This document shows, in pieces, positions 1,937 to 61,286 of a stretch of DNA of 64,000 bases; position 1 is the stretch's first letter; each line of letters begins with the position of its first letter. The position numbers and the translations under genes are program-made. The notes beneath the pieces were generated by a model. That model searched no databases. It was not told the DNA's origin and saw nothing but the letters and a program-made list of their open reading frames with translations. The DNA comes from Pseudoxanthomonas yeongjuensis (lineage in GTDB: Bacteria; Pseudomonadota; Gammaproteobacteria; Xanthomonadales; Xanthomonadaceae). The stretch is from contig NZ_PDWT01000002.1 of NCBI RefSeq assembly GCF_010093345.1, forward strand, positions 124,001 through 188,000, written 5' to 3'.

Positions 1937-4900
1937 CTAGTCGCCCAGGGTCAGCAACGAGGCGTTGCCGCCCGCGGCGGTGGTATTCACGGTCACCGTC
2001 TTCTCGGTTGCGAAGCGCGGCAGGTAGTGCGGGCCGCCGGCCTTGGGGCCGGTGCCGGACAGGCCCTGGCCGCCGAACGGCTGCACCCCGACCACCGCGC
2101 CGATCTGGTTGCGGTTGACGTAGACATTGCCGACCTTGACCCGCGCGGCGATGCGGTCGATGGTTTCGTCGATGCGCGAATGCACGCCCAGGGTCAGGCC
2201 GTAGCCGGTGGCGTTGATCGCGTCGATGACCTTGTCCAGGTCCTCGCCTTTCCAGCGCAGCACGTGCAGCGCGGGACCGAAGACTTCCTTCTGCAACTGG
2301 TCCAGCGAATGCAGTTCCCAGGCGCCGGGCGCGAAGTAGGTGCCGTGCGCCACCGACGCGTCGGCATGCGCGCGCTTGATCGGCTTGGCTTCCCGGTCCA
2401 TGCGCGCGGCATGGTCTTCGAGGATCTTCAGCGCATCGGCGTCGATCACCGGGCCGACATCGGTGGACAGCAGGCCGGGATCGCCGACCCTCAGTTCGTC
2501 CATCGCCCCGGCGAGCATGCCGATCACCTTGTCGGCGATGTCTTCCTGCACGAACAGCACGCGCGCGGCCGAGCAGCGCTGGCCGGCGGAAGTGAAGGCC
2601 GAGCCGATCGCGTCCTTGACCAGTTGTTCCGGCAGGGCGGAGGAATCGGCGATGAAGGCGTTCTGGCCGCCGGTCTCGGCGATCAGCACGCCAATGGCGG
2701 CGTCGCGCGCGGCCATGGCGCGGTTGATCGCGCGGGCGGTGTCGGTGGAACCGGTGAAGGCCACGCCGGCCACGCGCGGATCCCTGGTCAATGCAGCGCC
2801 GACCACGGCGCCGTCGCCGGGCAGGAACTGGACCACATTTTCCGGCACGCCGGCTTCATGCAGCAGCTTCACCGCGGCATGGCCGATCAGGTTGGTCTGT
2901 TCGGCCGGCTTGGCGATCACGCTGTTGCCTGCGGCCAGCGCCGCGGCGACCTGGCCGAGGAAAATGGCGAGCGGGAAATTCCATGGGCTGATGCACACGA
3001 ACACGCCGCGACCGTGCAGTTGCAGCTCGTTGGATTCGCCGGTCGGGCCGGGCAGGCGTTCCGGCGCGCCGAACTGGGCGCGCGCCTGCGCCGCGTAATA
3101 GCGCAGGAAATCGACCGCCTCGCGCACTTCGGCGACGCCATCGGGGATGGTCTTGCCGGCTTCCTTCACGCACAGGGCGATGAATTCGGGCATGCGCGCT
3201 TCCAGCAGGCCGGCGGCATGCTCGAGGATCGTGGCGCGGCCGGCGGCCGGGGTACGGTCCCAGCCCGGTTGCGCGGCGACCGCATTGTGCAGCGCCTTCT
3301 CGACGATGGCGCTGTCGGCGGCATGCCATTCGCCCACCACCTGGCGGCGGTCGGCCGGGTTGGTCACCGGCAGCGCGCGCGTGGACAGTACCGCGCCCGG
3401 CACCAGCGGCGCGGCGCGCCAGCCATGCGGGCCGGCTTGCGTGAAGGCGTCGTTGATCTGCTCGGCGAGTGCGCGCAGGTCCTGGTCGTTGGCGAGGTTG
3501 GCGCCCATGGAATTCTTCCTGTCGGTGCTCAGGCTCGGCGCCTGGTTCTGGAAAAGTTGCACCGGCAACGGGATGCGCGGGTGCGGAATGGAATCGAACC
3601 CGGACACGGTTTCGACCGGGTCGCGGATCAGATCGTCGATGGCCACGTTTTCGTCGGTGATGCGGTTGACGAAACTGGAGTTGGCGCCGTTCTCGAGCAG
3701 GCGCCGGACCAGGTAGGGCAGCAGGTCCTCGTGCGAGCCGACCGGCGCGTACACCCGGCAGGGAATGCCGAGGCGGTCGGCCGGGACCACTTCGGCATAC
3801 AGGTCGTCGCCCATGCCGTGCAGTTTCTGGAATTCGAAAGGCGAGGAACGAGTGGAGAGGAACGAGGAACGAGAGGTATCCACCGCCGCTCCCGCTTCTA
3901 CTCGCTCCTCGTTCCTCGTTTCTCGTTTCTCCAGCAATACCGAGGCCATCTGGCGAATCGCCGCGATCGTCTGTGCGTTATGCGTGGCGAACATCGGATA
4001 CAGCGCGTCGATATTGGCGAACATCCGTCGCGCGTTGGCCAGGTAGGACACGTCAGTGTTGGGCTTGCGCGTGAACACCGGATAGCCCGGGTGGCCTTCG
4101 ACCTGCGCGCGCTTCACTTCCGCGTCCCAGTACGCACCCTTGACCAGGCGCACCGGCATGCGCCGGCCGGCCCGGCGGGCCAGGTCGGCGAGGAAATCGA
4201 GCACCCAGGGCGTGCGCTTCTGGTAGGCCTGCACGGCCAGGCCGTAGCCTTCCCAGCCCTCCAGCGACTTGTCGGAGAAAGTGGCCTCGATCAGGTCCAG
4301 CGACAGCTCCAGGCGGTCGGCTTCCTCGGCGTCGATGGTGAAGCCGATGGCGTACGACCTGGCCAGTTGCGCCAGCTCGAGGATCCCGGGGGCGAGTTCG
4401 GCCATCACCCGTTCGCGCTTGGCGTGTTCGTAGCGCGGGTGCAGGGCGGAGAGCTTGATCGAGATGCTGGGGGCGGCGAATACGTCGGCGAACGGGCCGG
4501 TCTTGCCGATCGCGTGGATGGCCTTGCGGTAGGCCTCGAGGTAGCGCGCGGCATCCTTCGAAGTCAGCGCGCCTTCGCCGAGCATGTCGAAGGAATAACG
4601 GTAACTGGCGTTGTCGCCCTTGCGCGACCGGGCCAGCGCTTCGGCGATCGTCCGGCCCATCACGAACTGGTGGCCCATGATGCGCATGGCCTGACGCACG
4701 GCCAGGCGGATCACCGGCTCGCCCACGCGGCCGACCAGGCGCTTGAAAGCGCCGCGCACATCGTGGCGGGTCAGGTCGTTCAGGCTGACCAGCTTGCCGG
4801 TCAGCATCAGGCCCCAGGTCGAGGCGTTGACCAGCACCGAGTCGCTTTCGCCCATGTGCTTCTTCCAGTCCGCGTCGCCCAGCTTGTCGCGGATCAGCTT

Positions 4901-5245
4901 GTCGGCGGTGTCCTGGTCGGGGATGCGCAGCAGCGCCTCGGCCACGCACATCAGCAGCACGCCTTCCTCGCTGCCCAGGTCGTACTGGCGCATGAAGGCC
5001 TCGATCGCGCCCTGATCCTGGGCGCGGGCGCGGACCCGGGTCACCAGATCCGCGGCCAGTGCCTGGGCGGCGGCCTGGTCCGCGGCGGGCAGGCGCGCCT
5101 GCTCCAGCAGATCGCGCACGTGTTCGGTTTCGTCGCGCATCCAGGCCGCGGTGATGGCCTGGCGCAGGGGGGACGGTTCGCCCGGGAGCTCGGGGGCAAT
5201 GAGATCCGCAGGAGGGGTGACGGCGGCGGGCGAGGGAATCGACAT
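1937..5245 (-). CDS. putA: Bifunctional proline dehydrogenase / L-glutamate-5-semialdehyde dehydrogenase PutA
   Basis: PutA oxidises proline to glutamate in two steps: an FAD-dependent proline dehydrogenase passes electrons to quinone, then an NAD-dependent aldehyde dehydrogenase acts. The first half shows the PRODH barrel (FTIDAEEADRLELSLDL, RLVKGAYWDAEVKRAQ, FEFQKLHGMGDDLY). The second half is an ALDH domain with FTGSTDTARAIN, ETGGQNAFI and the catalytic cysteine in GQRCSAAR (about C890). There is no N-terminal ribbon-helix-helix domain, so this PutA should not repress its own gene as the E. coli protein does. It ends soon after GTGPKAGGPHYLPRF, like the shorter PutA types. At 1102 residues it is longer than most of that type, partly because about 30 residues (about 438-468) are encoded by an inserted palindrome inside the PRODH domain. 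Confidence 0.96.
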   Translation of the reverse strand: MSIPSPAAVTPPADLIAPELPGEPSPLRQAITAAWMRDETEHVRDLLEQARLPAADQAAAQALAADLVTRVRARAQDQGAIEAFMRQYDLGSEEGVLLMCVAEALLRIPDQDTADKLIRDKLGDADWKKHMGESDSVLVNASTWGLMLTGKLVSLNDLTRHDVRGAFKRLVGRVGEPVIRLAVRQAMRIMGHQFVMGRTIAEALARSRKGDNASYRYSFDMLGEGALTSKDAARYLEAYRKAIHAIGKTGPFADVFAAPSISIKLSALHPRYEHAKRERVMAELAPGILELAQLARSYAIGFTIDAEEADRLELSLDLIEATFSDKSLEGWEGYGLAVQAYQKRTPWVLDFLADLARRAGRRMPVRLVKGAYWDAEVKRAQVEGHPGYPVFTRKPNTDVSYLANARRMFANIDALYPMFATHNAQTIAAIRQMASVLLEKRETRNEERVEAGAAVDTSRSSFLSTRSSPFEFQKLHGMGDDLYAEVVPADRLGIPCRVYAPVGSHEDLLPYLVRRLLENGANSSFVNRITDENVAIDDLIRDPVETVSGFDSIPHPRIPLPVQLFQNQAPSLSTDRKNSMGANLANDQDLRALAEQINDAFTQAGPHGWRAAPLVPGAVLSTRALPVTNPADRRQVVGEWHAADSAIVEKALHNAVAAQPGWDRTPAAGRATILEHAAGLLEARMPEFIALCVKEAGKTIPDGVAEVREAVDFLRYYAAQARAQFGAPERLPGPTGESNELQLHGRGVFVCISPWNFPLAIFLGQVAAALAAGNSVIAKPAEQTNLIGHAAVKLLHEAGVPENVVQFLPGDGAVVGAALTRDPRVAGVAFTGSTDTARAINRAMAARDAAIGVLIAETGGQNAFIADSSALPEQLVKDAIGSAFTSAGQRCSAARVLFVQEDIADKVIGMLAGAMDELRVGDPGLLSTDVGPVIDADALKILEDHAARMDREAKPIKRAHADASVAHGTYFAPGAWELHSLDQLQKEVFGPALHVLRWKGEDLDKVIDAINATGYGLTLGVHSRIDETIDRIAARVKVGNVYVNRNQIGAVVGVQPFGGQGLSGTGPKAGGPHYLPRFATEKTVTVNTTAAGGNASLLTLGD
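3841..3932. repeat. In-frame palindromic repeat inserted in putA
   Basis: About 90 bases inside putA are built from GAGGAACGAG-like units on the left (3842-3874) and their complements CTCGTTCCTCGTTTCTCG on the right (3901-3932), with a spacer of about 27 bases. The encoded residues are low-complexity and charged (EKRETRNEERVEAG..., DTSRSSFLSTRSS). They fall between the normally adjacent PutA segments IAAIRQMAS and FEFQKLHGMG. The reading frame is kept. It looks like a mobile palindrome tolerated in a surface loop of the PRODH domain. Confidence 0.8.
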
Positions 5246-15050: not shown

Positions 15051-15063
15051 TTCCGCGAGAATC

Positions 15064-15144
15064 GTAGGAGCGCCCCTTGGGCGCGATGCTCTTGGGTTTT
15101 TCGCGATCGGATCGGAGGGCATCGCGCCCAAGGGGCGCTCCTAC
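15064..15144. repeat. REP-like element, GTAGGAGCG subfamily
   Basis: Its ends are GTAGGAGCGCCCCTTGGGCG and the complement CGCCCAAGGGGCGCTCCTAC, giving an outer stem of about 20 bp; the middle of about 40 bases contains GATGCTCTTG. It lies between the convergent ctaB and S9 peptidase genes, where it can form a terminator-like hairpin for both. Confidence 0.85.
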
Positions 15145-15153
15145 GGTCCGCGG

Positions 15154-17239: not shown

Positions 17240-17306
17240 GTAGAGCCGAGCTTGCTCGGCCGCTCTTCGCGAAAAATCAAGAGCAGCCGAGCAAGCTCGG
17301 CTCTAC
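17240..17306. repeat. REP-like element, GTAGAGCCGAGC subfamily
   Basis: The left arm GTAGAGCCGAGCTTGCTCGG is mirrored by CCGAGCAAGCTCGGCTCTAC on the right, and each arm holds a smaller internal hairpin (CCGAGCTTGCTCGG). It lies in the 189-base gap between dnaG and the S9 peptidase gene, both on the minus strand, just after dnaG. It closely matches the elements at 21180 and 41666. Confidence 0.88.
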
Positions 17307-21121: not shown

Positions 21122-21179
21122 GTGGATCTCCAGGTTGTTGATTAAAACCGTATGCCAAGGCGTGCCGTCCTCTCGCCTC

Positions 21180-21246
21180 GTAGATCCGAGCTTGCTCGGA
21201 TGCATTTCGCATTGAGGCAAGAGCATCCGAGCAAGCTCGGACCTAC
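21180..21246. repeat. REP-like element, GTAGATCCGAGC subfamily
   Basis: GTAGATCCGAGCTTGCTCGG on the left pairs with CCGAGCAAGCTCGGACCTAC on the right, with GATGCATTTCGCATTGAGGCAAGAGCATC between. It sits between rpsU and yqeY on the minus strand, after the rpsU terminator, and so separates the two transcripts. It is nearly the same as the element at 41666. Confidence 0.88.
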
Positions 21247-21273
21247 AAGACCGGGGCGATGCTCGCCACGGCC

Positions 21274-22840: not shown

Positions 22841-22864
22841 GAACAAAAGCGGCTACGCTTCCCT

Positions 22865-22892
22865 CACTCCTCACTCCTCACTCCTCACTCCG
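22865..22892 (+). repeat. Four tandem CACTCCT heptamers before folB
   Basis: CACTCCT is repeated three times exactly and a fourth time as CACTCCG, ending 3 bases before the folB ATG. The run takes the place where a ribosome-binding site should be and is close to an anti-Shine-Dalgarno sequence instead. Copy number could vary by slippage. Confidence 0.85.
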
Positions 22893-23249: not shown

Positions 23250-23731
23250 TGGGCAAGGCCTATCTGAGTCTGGGCAGCAATGTGTTGCCGGAACGAAACC
23301 TGGCTTCGGCCCTGCGCGCGTTGCGGGAAAGGTTCGGTGCGTTGCTGGTTTCTCCGGTCTATCGGACCAAGGCGATCGGATTCGACGGCCCTGATTTCCT
23401 CAATGCCGCCGCCGTGCTCGATTCCGACCTCGGCGTGCGCGAACTCAACGACTGGCTGCATGCGCTGGAAGACGCGCATGGCCGCGATCGTAGCGGGCCG
23501 CGTTTTGGCGATCGGCCGCTGGATATCGACATCGTGTTCTATGACGATCTGGTCATGCAGGGGCCCGGCAGCTTGCGCCTGCCGCGTCCGGAACTGCAGC
23601 ATGCGTTCGTGCTCAGGCCATTGGCGGATATCGCTCCGGACTTCGTGGATCCGGTGTCGGGTCGGACTCTGGCCGATCTGTGGGCGCAGTCGCCAGAGAG
23701 CGGTGTCCCGATGCAACTAGTGGAAGGCTGA
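23249..23731 (+). CDS. folK: 2-amino-4-hydroxy-6-hydroxymethyldihydropteridine pyrophosphokinase FolK
   Basis: FolK attaches pyrophosphate to the FolB product, the next folate step. The 160-residue HPPK shows SLGSNVLPERNL, SPVYRTKAIGFDGPDFLNAAAVL, the catalytic block DRSGPRFGDRPLDIDIVFYDD, and PRPELQHAFVLRPLADIAP. Its ATG overlaps the folB stop (TGATG), so the two are translationally coupled. A palindromic repeat begins 2 bases after the stop. Confidence 0.95.
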   Translation: MGKAYLSLGSNVLPERNLASALRALRERFGALLVSPVYRTKAIGFDGPDFLNAAAVLDSDLGVRELNDWLHALEDAHGRDRSGPRFGDRPLDIDIVFYDDLVMQGPGSLRLPRPELQHAFVLRPLADIAPDFVDPVSGRTLADLWAQSPESGVPMQLVEG

Positions 23732-23732
23732 C

Positions 23733-23827
23733 GTGGGAGCGGCGTCCCGCCGCGAGCCCTCCCCCCAAGCGCACGCATTGCTTGCTCGGCGACTCATGCA
23801 AGAGCTCGCGGCGGGACGCCGCTCCTA
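23733..23827. repeat. REP-like element, GTGGGAGCG variant
   Basis: The left arm GTGGGAGCGGCGTCCCGCCG and the right arm GCGGCGGGACGCCGCTCCTAC pair over about 20 bp; the middle of about 50 bases is not conserved with the other copies. The left end has GTGG in place of GTAG. It directly follows folK. Confidence 0.82.
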
Positions 23828-23915
23828 CGTCATGCCGCCCCCACAATGACTTCCGGCAGCTTGCGGCGCCCGTCCGCAGGCGGCACGCTATCCGCATCGT
23901 CACTGGGGAAGGGTC

Positions 23916-24743
23916 ATGTTCGAGAAATTTTCGCGTAGCTGGGAACTGGTCAAGGCCAGCGCCGGGGTCCTGCGCTCCGACAAGGAGCTGATGCTGTTCC
24001 CGCTGATTTCCGGTGCCGCCACCCTGGTGGTGATGGCGACGTTCCTGATCCCGGTATTCGCGCTGCGCATCTTCGAGAACGGCATCGGCATAGGCGGCGC
24101 GGTACTCGGCTTCCTGTTCTACTTCTGCCAGTACAGCGTGATCATCTTCTTCAACTGCGCGCTGGTCGGCGCGGCGATGATCCGCCTCGACGGGGGCGAT
24201 CCGACCCTGCGCGACGGTTTCGATGCGGCGAAATCGCGCCTGCCTTCGATCCTCGGCTATGCGGCCATCGCCGCAACCGTTGGCGTATTTCTGCAGGCGC
24301 TCAAGAACAAGGACAACAATTTCATCGTGCGCCTGGTCGGCAGCGGCCTCGGCGCCGCCTGGACCCTGGCCACCTTCCTGGTGGTGCCGGTGCTGGTCAG
24401 CCGCGACATCGGTCCGATCGACGCGTTGAAGGAAAGCGTAACCCTGCTCAGGCGCACCTGGGGCGAGAACGCGATCGGCAACGTCGGCATCGGCGCCGCG
24501 TTTGGACTCATCACTTTCCTGTCCCTGCTGGTCGGCGCCGGACTGGTGTTCGCCGCGTACCAGGTGTCGCTGCCGCTGGCGATCGGGATCGGCGCGATTT
24601 TCCTGCTCGGCGTGCTGTTGCTCGGCATCTACCAGGCCGCGCTGAGCGGAGTGTATTCGGCGGCGCTGTACCGCTACGCGGTATCGCACGAAGCGCCGGC
24701 GGCGTTCCGCGGCGCGATGCTGGAAGACGCGTTCCGCGCGTAG
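23916..24743 (+). CDS. DUF6159-like polytopic membrane protein
   Basis: A 275-residue inner-membrane protein with about six hydrophobic segments and no catalytic motif I can identify. It begins MFEKFSRSWELVKASAGVLRSDKELMLFPLIS, typical of an uncharacterised membrane family annotated DUF6159, and has DAKxRLPSILGYA-like and VPVLVSRDIGPIDALKESVTLLRRTWGEN segments. The last codon runs into a palindromic repeat: its stop codon TAG is part of the GTAGGAGCG head at 24740. The neighbours are folate genes, but no link to folate is apparent. Confidence 0.8.
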   Translation: MFEKFSRSWELVKASAGVLRSDKELMLFPLISGAATLVVMATFLIPVFALRIFENGIGIGGAVLGFLFYFCQYSVIIFFNCALVGAAMIRLDGGDPTLRDGFDAAKSRLPSILGYAAIAATVGVFLQALKNKDNNFIVRLVGSGLGAAWTLATFLVVPVLVSRDIGPIDALKESVTLLRRTWGENAIGNVGIGAAFGLITFLSLLVGAGLVFAAYQVSLPLAIGIGAIFLLGVLLLGIYQAALSGVYSAALYRYAVSHEAPAAFRGAMLEDAFRA

Positions 24744-24819
24744 GAGCGACGTAAGTCGCGAAGGACATGCATGTAATCCGGGTATGCCGCACGCCCATCG
24801 CGACTAACGTCGCTCCTAC
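24740..24819. repeat. REP-like element, GTAGGAGCG subfamily, overlapping a stop codon
   Basis: The arms GTAGGAGCGACGTAAGTCGCG and CGCGACTAACGTCGCTCCTAC are complementary over about 20 bases with one shift. The TAG of the left GTAG (24741-24743) is the stop codon of the preceding membrane-protein gene. The element separates two convergent genes. Confidence 0.87.
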
Positions 24820-24835
24820 GCCATTTCTACGCCGA

Positions 24836-41629: not shown

Positions 41630-41665
41630 GCCCAGGAATCGCCGATCGGGCCACTCTCCGACCTT

Positions 41666-41731
41666 GTAGATACGAGCTTGCTCGGATGCTCTTGGCGGGA
41701 ATCAAAAGCATCCGAGCAAGCTCGGATCTAC
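41666..41731. repeat. REP-like element, GTAGATACGAGC subfamily
   Basis: GTAGATACGAGCTTGCTCGG and CCGAGCAAGCTCGGATCTAC form the outer stem, with GATGCTCTTGGCGGGAATCAAAAGCATC between. It is very close to the element at 21180, which is 20 kb away. It lies 36 bases after nagX. Confidence 0.88.
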
Positions 41732-41851
41732 AAGGCAACAGCAAGTGCTTTTGGGTCCGTGCCAAGCTCGCCGCGCCGCAGCCCGCTTCGGACCGGCAGT
41801 CCAATCACGTTTTCCTTCCGCGGATTGCGGTAGAAACCGTCAGGCATCCCG

Positions 41852-47014: not shown

Positions 47015-47035
47015 GTTCGGATGATGCCTGATTTT

Positions 47036-47170
47036 CCTTCTCCCTCCGGGAGAAGGTGCCCGCAGGGCGGATGAGGGAATGGATTATCAGATCGTAGAAG
47101 ACTCCACTACGCGCAGAATTCTCCTTCCCCCATCCGTCGCTTCGCGCCACCTTCTCCCGGTGGGAGAAGG
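47036..47170. repeat. Long palindromic repeat of CCTTCTCCC...GGGAGAAGG type
   Basis: Each end is itself a hairpin: CCTTCTCCCTCCGGGAGAAGG at 47036-47056 and CCTTCTCCCGGTGGGAGAAGG at 47150-47170. Next to these are GGCGGATGAGGG and its partner CCCCCATCCGTC. The two halves are inverted around a spacer of about 50 bases. It fills most of the gap between slt and cca. Elements of this kind are common between genes in Xanthomonas-like genomes. Confidence 0.85.
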
Positions 47171-47181
47171 AAAGCTGGAGA

Positions 47182-60531: not shown

Positions 60532-60538
60532 CATGCCT

Positions 60539-60612
60539 GTAGGAGCGGGCCTTGCCCGCGATGCTCTTGCGTTGGTTACGGGAAAAGCATCGCGCCCTAG
60601 GGGCGCTCCTAC
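60539..60612. repeat. REP-like element, GTAGGAGCG subfamily, overlapping a stop codon
   Basis: The left arm is GTAGGAGCGGGCCTTGCCCGC and the right arm ends GCGCCCTAGGGGCGCTCCTAC, around GATGCTCTTGCG...AAAAGCATC. The final CTA (60609-60611) read on the minus strand is the TAG stop of the next gene. It lies between convergent genes. Confidence 0.87.
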
Positions 60613-61286
60613 AGGAGCTGGAAATCGGTGTAGGCGAAGCGCCCGTCGCGCAGCACGGTCTCGCCACGTTCGACCCTGATCGGGCGATCGAACATCGGCC
60701 CGGCGTGGACGCAGGTATGGAACTCGCCGTTTTCGCCGCAGGGATCGATGCCGACCGGCAAGGCGTCGAGCAGCGTGGTGTCGAAGTCGCGGCCGGCGAA
60801 GCCGGCGTCGAGTTGTTGCGTGTCCACGCAGCACAGCGCCGCGTGCAGGCCGCCGTCGATCATCTCGCGCGCGAGTCGCGCGGTGTCGCTGCCGAACAGG
60901 GGGAACAGCGGCTGCCAGCCGGCGCTCGCACATTTGCTTTCGCGATAGGCGCGGATGTCTTCCAGGAACAGGTCGCCGAAGGCGACGCTGCGCAGACCGG
61001 GCCAGCGCGCTCCGGCCTCGGCCAACGCCCGCGCCATCGCCGCTTCGTAGGCGACGTTGTCGCATTGCGCGGGGATCTCGGCCGCAAGCAGCGGCAGGCC
61101 CGCGGCGGCGGCCTGCGCGTCCAGCACCTCGCGGCGTATGCCCTGCATCGATGCGCGCTGGTATTCCGCGGTGATCGTGGTCAACAGCGCGACCACCTCG
61201 ACTTCGCCGCGCTGCCGCAGCGCATGCAACGCCCAGGCCGCATCCTTGCCGCCGCTCCACGACAGCAGCGCCGGCGTGCGCATCAT
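60609..61286 (-). CDS. Dph6-like ATP-pyrophosphatase (diphthine-ammonia ligase family)
   Basis: A 225-residue PP-loop ATPase. The loop is SWSGGKDAAWAL near the N-terminus. Other family features are AFGDLFLEDIRAYRESKCA, FPLFGSDTARLAREMIDGG and the C-terminal PCGENGEFHTCVHAGPMF, which is the Dph6/MJ0570 signature. Bacteria lack diphthamide, so the bacterial substrate must differ and is unknown. The stop codon lies in the palindromic repeat, and the last residues (DFQLL) directly precede it. Two adjacent ATGs are possible starts. Confidence 0.88.
   Translation of the reverse strand: MMRTPALLSWSGGKDAAWALHALRQRGEVEVVALLTTITAEYQRASMQGIRREVLDAQAAAAGLPLLAAEIPAQCDNVAYEAAMARALAEAGARWPGLRSVAFGDLFLEDIRAYRESKCASAGWQPLFPLFGSDTARLAREMIDGGLHAALCCVDTQQLDAGFAGRDFDTTLLDALPVGIDPCGENGEFHTCVHAGPMFDRPIRVERGETVLRDGRFAYTDFQLL

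Follow-up and report, generated by a model that had tools for sequence, protein, structure and literature searches.

In Pseudoxanthomonas yeongjuensis, the proline dehydrogenase domain of PutA carries an in-frame insert. This insert probably belongs, as a MITE-like copy that is not autonomous, to a hairpin family dispersed in the genome; the likely full-length form of the family carries a gene for a 23S rRNA intervening-sequence protein (IVP or S23p, a four-helix-bundle protein). A copy of this family has, on either side of a short spacer, an array of about four 7-bp units, the two arrays being inverted relative to each other; in the likely full-length form the same arms would flank the IVP gene, and the likely master copy is the PF05635 gene found between nrdA and nrdB. 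Insertion into putA most likely preceded the split of this species from P. wuyuanensis. The PutA copy probably survived because its arrays are stop-free, because its length leaves the frame unshifted, and because it landed in a helix-to-strand loop of the PRODH barrel that varies in length. Beyond the insertion itself, the more important result is the link between this heptamer hairpin family and the IVP, through which the family may be mobile.

The window, the whole stretch of 64,000 nucleotides that was analyzed, holds putA on its minus strand (1937..5245), an ATG-started frame of 1102 codons with zero internal stops, identified as a bifunctional proline dehydrogenase/aldehyde dehydrogenase by its open frame, its PDB relatives (5kf6 and others), and a profile search returning PF18327, PF14850, PF01619, and PF00171. 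The initial annotation had described a palindromic repeat lying in frame in the PRODH domain and adding about 30 residues without a frame break, and both statements hold: the element, recognized by its inverted repeat, its fold, and its dispersed copies, spans 3843..3931, corresponds to about residues 439-468, and leaves the frame intact. Arm 1 (3843..3873, plus strand) reads GAGGAAC GAGTGGA GAGGAAC GAGGAAC GAG, and the inverted arm 2 (3901..3931, minus strand) reads, on that strand, GAGAAAC GAGAAAC GAGGAAC GAGGAGC GAG. The arms thus comprise four 7-base units each (GAGGAAC and variants), are 81% complementary, and stand 27 nt apart; each is a direct tandem array, and the palindrome arises only between them. 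The intervening spacer (3874..3900), compared with those of other copies in its minus-strand reading, contains TAGAAGCGGGAGCGG, similar to the spacer starts found elsewhere. The predicted RNA fold of the minus strand at 3838-3936 reaches -46.2 kcal/mol (z -3.46), with 0/200 shuffles equally good, and a search of the window at the Rfam gathering score returned no match. Arrays of GAGGAAC and GAGAAAC are stop-free in all six frames; this does not extend to every unit of the family, as GAGGAGT, GTGATTC, and others contain stops, and half of all heptamers are stop-free.

When the insert was mapped on a solved PutA structure, as had been suggested, the flanking matches stopped at residue 438 of 5kf6 and restarted at residue 445, so that about 33 residues stand here where 5kf6 has six. 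In the PDB alignment the insert falls between the helix next to THNAQT, on its C-terminal side, and the strand FEFQKLHGMG. An AlphaFold model built with 38 sequences was poor overall (mean pLDDT 61.8), with a helix at 424-451 extending into the insert and residues 452-466 below 50, and the position of the loop was therefore taken solely from the PDB alignment. PutA probably remains active.

The two PutA segments on either side had been called normally adjacent, and for most relatives this is correct, the stretch from THN to LHGMG measuring 28 aa in 55 of the 80 named loci, 32 aa in 10, and 37-41 aa in 12, with outliers of 55, 61, and 79 aa in one locus each (L053 was not matched by the loop script); this genome is, however, not alone, since P. 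wuyuanensis, G019, P. japonensis, and the metagenome-assembled genome (MAG) locus L090 depart from the common length as well. In agreement with the majority pattern, tblastn with PutA showed an alignment gap between residue 434 and residues 466-467 in 13 genomes of the same genus, 9 further ones being matched only distantly. PutA of P. wuyuanensis (L061, the 55-aa segment) retains an alignable, degenerate heptamer remnant from which part of one arm is gone. The PutA alignment A1 covers 38 of the collected PutA sequences. A different palindrome occupies the site in G019 (68 aa), in G021 and P. japonensis (61 aa), and in L090 (79 aa). G019 is the nearest relative searched, with PutA 92% identical, or 96% over the tree columns; the PutA core of P. 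japonensis (L064) is identical to that of G021, and repeats of the second type occur also in the MAG RBC082 (L090). In the PutA tree, in which 1/110 loci was left unmatched by the script, this genome and G019 are sisters (support 100, starred), P. wuyuanensis comes next (99, starred), and P. japonensis is placed among insert-free rows. From these positions of the palindrome carriers it follows that the loop acquired palindromes more than once; it is a recurrent acceptor, in which a second, unrelated palindrome type is found in other lineages. The alignment favors a single origin of the heptamer insert in this genome and P. wuyuanensis, which would entail its loss in G019, over separate gains here and in P. 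wuyuanensis.

The second palindromic repeat, of the type CCTTCTCCC..GGGAGAAGG, was seen in the PutA loop of L032, L033, L064, and L090, and an inverted repeat similar to it lies at 47033-47173 of the window; the exact CCCTTCTCCC is absent from the window, and no named family was traced for it. The suggestion that the loop tolerates insertions is supported by the data. The suggestion of a mobile insertion is likewise supported: most PutA relatives lack the insert rather than carrying an alignable, non-repetitive segment in its place, and the repeat recurs throughout the genome, with 209 10-mers and at least 41 two-armed copies.

Within the window alone, the 10-mer GAGGAACGAG was found 9 times at up to one mismatch, 7 of them inside the putA element, against 4.3 expected; with 3/100 shuffles reaching 9 matches, this excess is modest. 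Genome-wide, the same 10-mer has 102 + 107 exact matches vs 1 + 4 for a reversed control, and the 17-mer GAGGAACGAGGAACGAG (hereafter the GAG 17-mer) has 33 + 36 vs 0. We fetched the stretches around the listed places of both words, so that degenerate copies on the last contigs were possibly missed. Among the matches listed there are at least 53 clusters with two or more units (by a loose motif, some perhaps by chance) and at least 41 two-armed copies of median length 94 bp, whose spacers range from 6 to 153 nt (median 35) and in which the variants of the two arms showed no correlation. Across the family, the GAG 17-mer was detected in 15/297 genomes and 7/54 genera, its count being highest in this genome (69) and zero in G019. 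A second heptamer array in the window, detected with Tandem Repeats Finder, is the one-armed CCTCACT x 4.3 at 22862..22891; it is a rotated GAGGAGT on the opposite strand and lies directly before an ATG at about 22896, which opens a frame resembling dihydroneopterin aldolase. As GAGGAGT units are mixed into arms elsewhere, this array may belong to the GAGGAAC family. The window further contains inverted repeats at 15056-15152, 17240-17306, 21154-21272, 23729-23832, 24738-24821, 41662-41735, and 60536-60615 that resemble pairs of GTAG- or GTGG-tagged REPs.

Two of the at least 53 clusters lie mid-gene, in long frames whose third positions look coding both before and after the cluster, namely those in putA and hrpA; the remaining frames that span clusters are shorter or lack the coding-like third-position signature on one side. 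The search for the palindrome inside other genes, proposed in the initial annotation, was productive: the HrpA peptide (..TRSSFLSTRS..) is near-identical to that of PutA (..SRSSFLSTRS..), which places both copies in the same orientation and frame. The HrpA linker varies from 35 to 97 aa among relatives (18 of 20 loci matched by script), and in G243 and G019 (L295, L296) it holds another palindrome-derived stretch (CCCCCTTTGAAAAAGGGGG in L295). Copies also reach into the nrd region, where a heptamer hairpin of about 90 nt lies inside the aptamer region of the cobalamin riboswitch that precedes nrdA (RF00174, 98 bits; L172:1470-1762). The C-terminus of the IVP frame, RGTRNE, is encoded by one arm, and the arm on the other side of the gene forms the N-terminus of NrdB, MPTSENSILVPRSSPLAPRLLDPG. 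Assuming the first ATG throughout, the NrdB start is longer in P. wuyuanensis (G176) and G014, both with an IVP at nrdA-nrdB, and shorter (MSAQPKQMLLDPG and alike) in seven members of the genus without an IVP there. In several IVP-free relatives (L309, L314, L316, L317) the nrdA-nrdB gap contains other C-rich/G-rich palindromic repeats.

The genome has a single PF05635 match (C24:207236-207547), which has nrdA and nrdB as its neighbors and a heptamer copy to either side; a motif search placed an IVP gene between nrdA and nrdB at L172:4340-5183, which is the locus of this genome, and at 13 further loci. Its relatives among solved structures are 2gsc (X. campestris XCC0516; E 9e-23) and, with a weak match, 2rld. 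PF05635 is present in 126/297 genomes of the family. We examined 90 IVP loci, comprising that of this genome, the 30 best less L206 (a short contig), and 60 chosen with heptamer-positive genomes first, and scored self-matches at periods 4-13 over 400 bp on each side. Period 7 was best or tied-best in 156/180 flanks and sole best in 145, vs 8/178 (alone in 6) in control windows 500 bp further out and 7/178 in those 600 bp further out; L254, which touches a contig end, had its match trimmed by hand and does not figure in the controls. The arrays enclose the gene as inverted repeats, with the G-rich strand pointing inward in 75 upstream and 74 downstream flanks of the 90 loci and outward in 0 and 4. 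The flanking unit varies among genomes (GGGACTC, GGGACCG, GGGATTC, GTGATTC, GGGAATC, GAGGAAC, and others), and when units were sorted into five classes, those on the two sides agreed in 66 of 69 loci vs 15 in shuffles; 16/90 loci had no clear heptamer class and 21/90 were not classed on both sides. These observations support an amendment to the initial annotation: the element is a hairpin built of tandem heptamers, and its family is linked to genes for IVP/S23 proteins.

The same organization is found on plasmids. Of 30 plasmid records that contained a relative of the IVP, 12 were examined; period 7 came out best on both sides in 9 (Nostoc four times, Calothrix, Anabaena, Geminocystis, Azospirillum, and Riemerella) and on one side in 1 (Stanieria), and the flanks in Gemmatirosa and Picosynechococcus (L278, L284) had period 8, not period 7. 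According to its annotation, a Nostoc edaphicum plasmid has its IVP between ribonucleotide reductase genes, an arrangement missed by the nrdA-nrdB motif search. On the cyanobacterial plasmids L280 and L284, IVP genes lie between cas genes; in the available part of PMC10910872, the 23S rRNA IVP is named among associations with CRISPR adaptation modules.

The type of the dispersed unit is associated with the type of the IVP locus. PF05635 was detected in 14/15 genomes with the GAG 17-mer (in one of these 14, G258, below the cut-off) vs 112/282 without it (p 3.7e-5). Among the 78 genomes with examined IVPs, to whose counts the IVP flanks themselves contribute a few copies, a GGGACTC 17-mer was present in at least 8 copies in 9/9 genomes with GGGACTC-flanked IVPs vs 12/69 others, and the GAG 17-mer was present in 8/10 genomes with GAG-flanked IVPs vs 5/68 others. 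In nine genomes of the genus searched with the nrdA-IVP-nrdB stretch, the two that carry an IVP there gave 74 and 44 matches, and the seven that do not gave 2-4. On the IVP tree, six unit labels require 12 changes vs 57 in shuffles (0/200 as low), an agreement partly expected because arms and IVP are physically linked and near-copies are included. All 14 of 103 IVP loci located at nrdA-nrdB fall in one 17-row IVP clade with GAG units (SH-aLRT 93, not starred). There are exceptions: G315 has 313 GGGACTC 17-mers and an examined IVP of the GGGACC type, G165 and G288 have GAG copies and examined IVPs of other types, G044 and G298 carry 86 and 40 GGGACTC 17-mers with no PF05635 match, and in G061 and G066 the IVP is of the GAG type and the GAG 17-mer is absent.

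This association bears on how the hairpins spread. We infer that the IVP may recognize the arms, as DNA or as an RNA hairpin, and promote their spread. A wider proposal, which we regard as tentative and put at somewhat less than even, is that IVP/S23 is a dedicated helper of widespread mobile heptamer hairpins, recognizing the 7-bp-periodic stem and promoting its copying to new sites with no known transposase or reverse transcriptase, such that 23S rRNA intervening sequences, the heptamers of Xanthomonas and Nostoc, and the in-frame hairpins of host proteins such as PutA would belong to a single system with a co-evolving IVP and unit. A serious rival, unlikely in our estimate, is that the IVP is a passenger: the spread of the hairpins would be the work of the host (through template switching, slippage, recombination, or a transposase supplied in trans), and one of the hairpins would happen to contain the IVP gene, or the IVP would shield the cell from hairpin RNA. 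It would accommodate the copies in G044 and G298, where no IVP was detected, and the GAG-type IVPs of G061 and G066 without 17-mer copies, and physical linkage accounts for part of the tree result; moreover, since the 14 loci of one clade share their place at nrdA-nrdB, that IVP lineage looks resident rather than mobile. Against a passenger stand two observations: over 78 genomes, the dispersed unit is associated with the one that flanks the IVP, and among the tested members of the genus, high copy numbers are restricted to those with an IVP at nrdA-nrdB. No known transposase was tied to the element, its copies yielded neither a defined insertion boundary nor a target duplication, and no movement was observed. 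S23 proteins are akin to the Avd protein of retroelements; a reverse-transcriptase partner was rejected, a profile search having returned 0 RVT_1 matches in this genome.

The inverted pairs with variable spacers resemble REPINs, and the genome has 11 Y1_Tnp matches, so movement as REP/REPIN elements by a RAYT (Y1_Tnp) transposase was considered; we find it very improbable, given that none of the 8 Y1_Tnp loci examined of these 11 has a heptamer array (one has a single 10-mer), that the arms are not palindromes in themselves, and that the GTAG-tagged REP-like repeats of the window are separate from the heptamers. Tandem 7-bp units that vary in number might also recall expansion by slippage inside putA. 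Slippage, however, yields direct arrays only, and the inverted arms here, a spacer like those of other copies, and at least 41 two-armed copies elsewhere render it scarcely credible. An assembly error is extremely unlikely too: short-read assemblies fail at repeats, but the 1102-codon frame is intact and an alignable remnant stands at the same place in a second assembly.

If the IVP is indeed the helper of these hairpins, a protein family without known function would gain a testable role, and dispersed heptamer repeats so far described separately would gain a common source. Hairpin repeats are read here into central proteins (PutA, HrpA, and NrdB), and lie also inside a riboswitch, outside Rickettsia, to which the Rickettsia palindromic elements are, to our knowledge, restricted. 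They hint at a little-known kind of bacterial mobile DNA. We found no report linking S23/IVP to dispersed heptamers in the portion of the open-access literature covered, and a literature search with GAGGAACGAG gave no paper on a GAGGAAC repeat among the matches listed.

The closest parallel is with intervening sequences of 23S rRNA. The Coxiella element has, in the available sections of PMC4990558, a 28-bp stem and, ahead of S23p, a tandem array of two or three GACAGAT heptamers; older proposals that intervening sequences are mobile are cited there. An inverted-repeat stem around an S23p/IVP gene is thus common to both and is present in the likely full-length copy, the PutA copy being a stem without the gene, and the GACAGAT heptamers agree with the view that IVP elements in general have heptamer arms. 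Unlike intervening sequences, which lie in 23S rRNA and are excised by RNase III, the IVP described here lies between protein genes, and the PutA copy lies within one; small IVP-free copies are also dispersed, some in coding sequence, and none are mentioned for Coxiella in those sections (PMC4990558).

Tandem heptamers have been described in other settings. Rehm et al. (PMC4692102, as available) reported GGGAATC-type tandem heptamers in Xanthomonas and Nostoc, mostly intergenic and with four units preferred, with 70-75 inverted pairs per Xanthomonas genome and with 7-11% of the repeats at least partly in ORFs; they are treated there as G-quadruplex repeats, generally without a link to mobile elements, and the text contains no mention of four helix, S23, intervening, transposase, or XCC0516. 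Our repeats share with them the tandem 7-bp unit, here GAGGAAC, yet GAGGAAC and GAGAAAC, unlike GGGAATC, lack a G-triplet, which many units at other IVP genes possess. TAACTGA heptamers are, in the available part of PMC4679880, intergenic and patchy over distant phyla (Beggiatoaceae, cyanobacteria, Bacteroidetes); unlike the hairpins studied here they are direct repeats, with one indirect repeat noted, and that text does not mention S23, four helix, or intervening sequence.

Among mobile palindromes, the Rickettsia elements are, as far as PMC10969869 was available, about 150 bp long; R. conorii has 44 of them, almost half located in ORFs, and each contains an ORF for a conserved peptide. Compared by description, they resemble our repeats in being palindromic and in frame in unrelated genes (here PutA and HrpA), and differ in that ours are about 90 bp, built of heptamers, linked to an IVP, and mid-gene in 2 of at least 53 clusters. 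The REPIN/RAYT system (PMC3116915, PMC2817692) likewise pairs numerous short inverted-repeat copies with a single candidate helper gene in each genome; the candidate helper here is a four-helix-bundle protein, not a tyrosine transposase, and the arms are tandem heptamers, unlike REP repeats, each of which is itself a GTAG- or CGTC-tagged palindrome (tags as given in PMC3733652). Finally, the family is like MITEs in comprising many small, non-coding copies with terminal inverted repeats (at least 41 two-armed, median 94 bp); its candidate autonomous copy carries the IVP and not a transposase.
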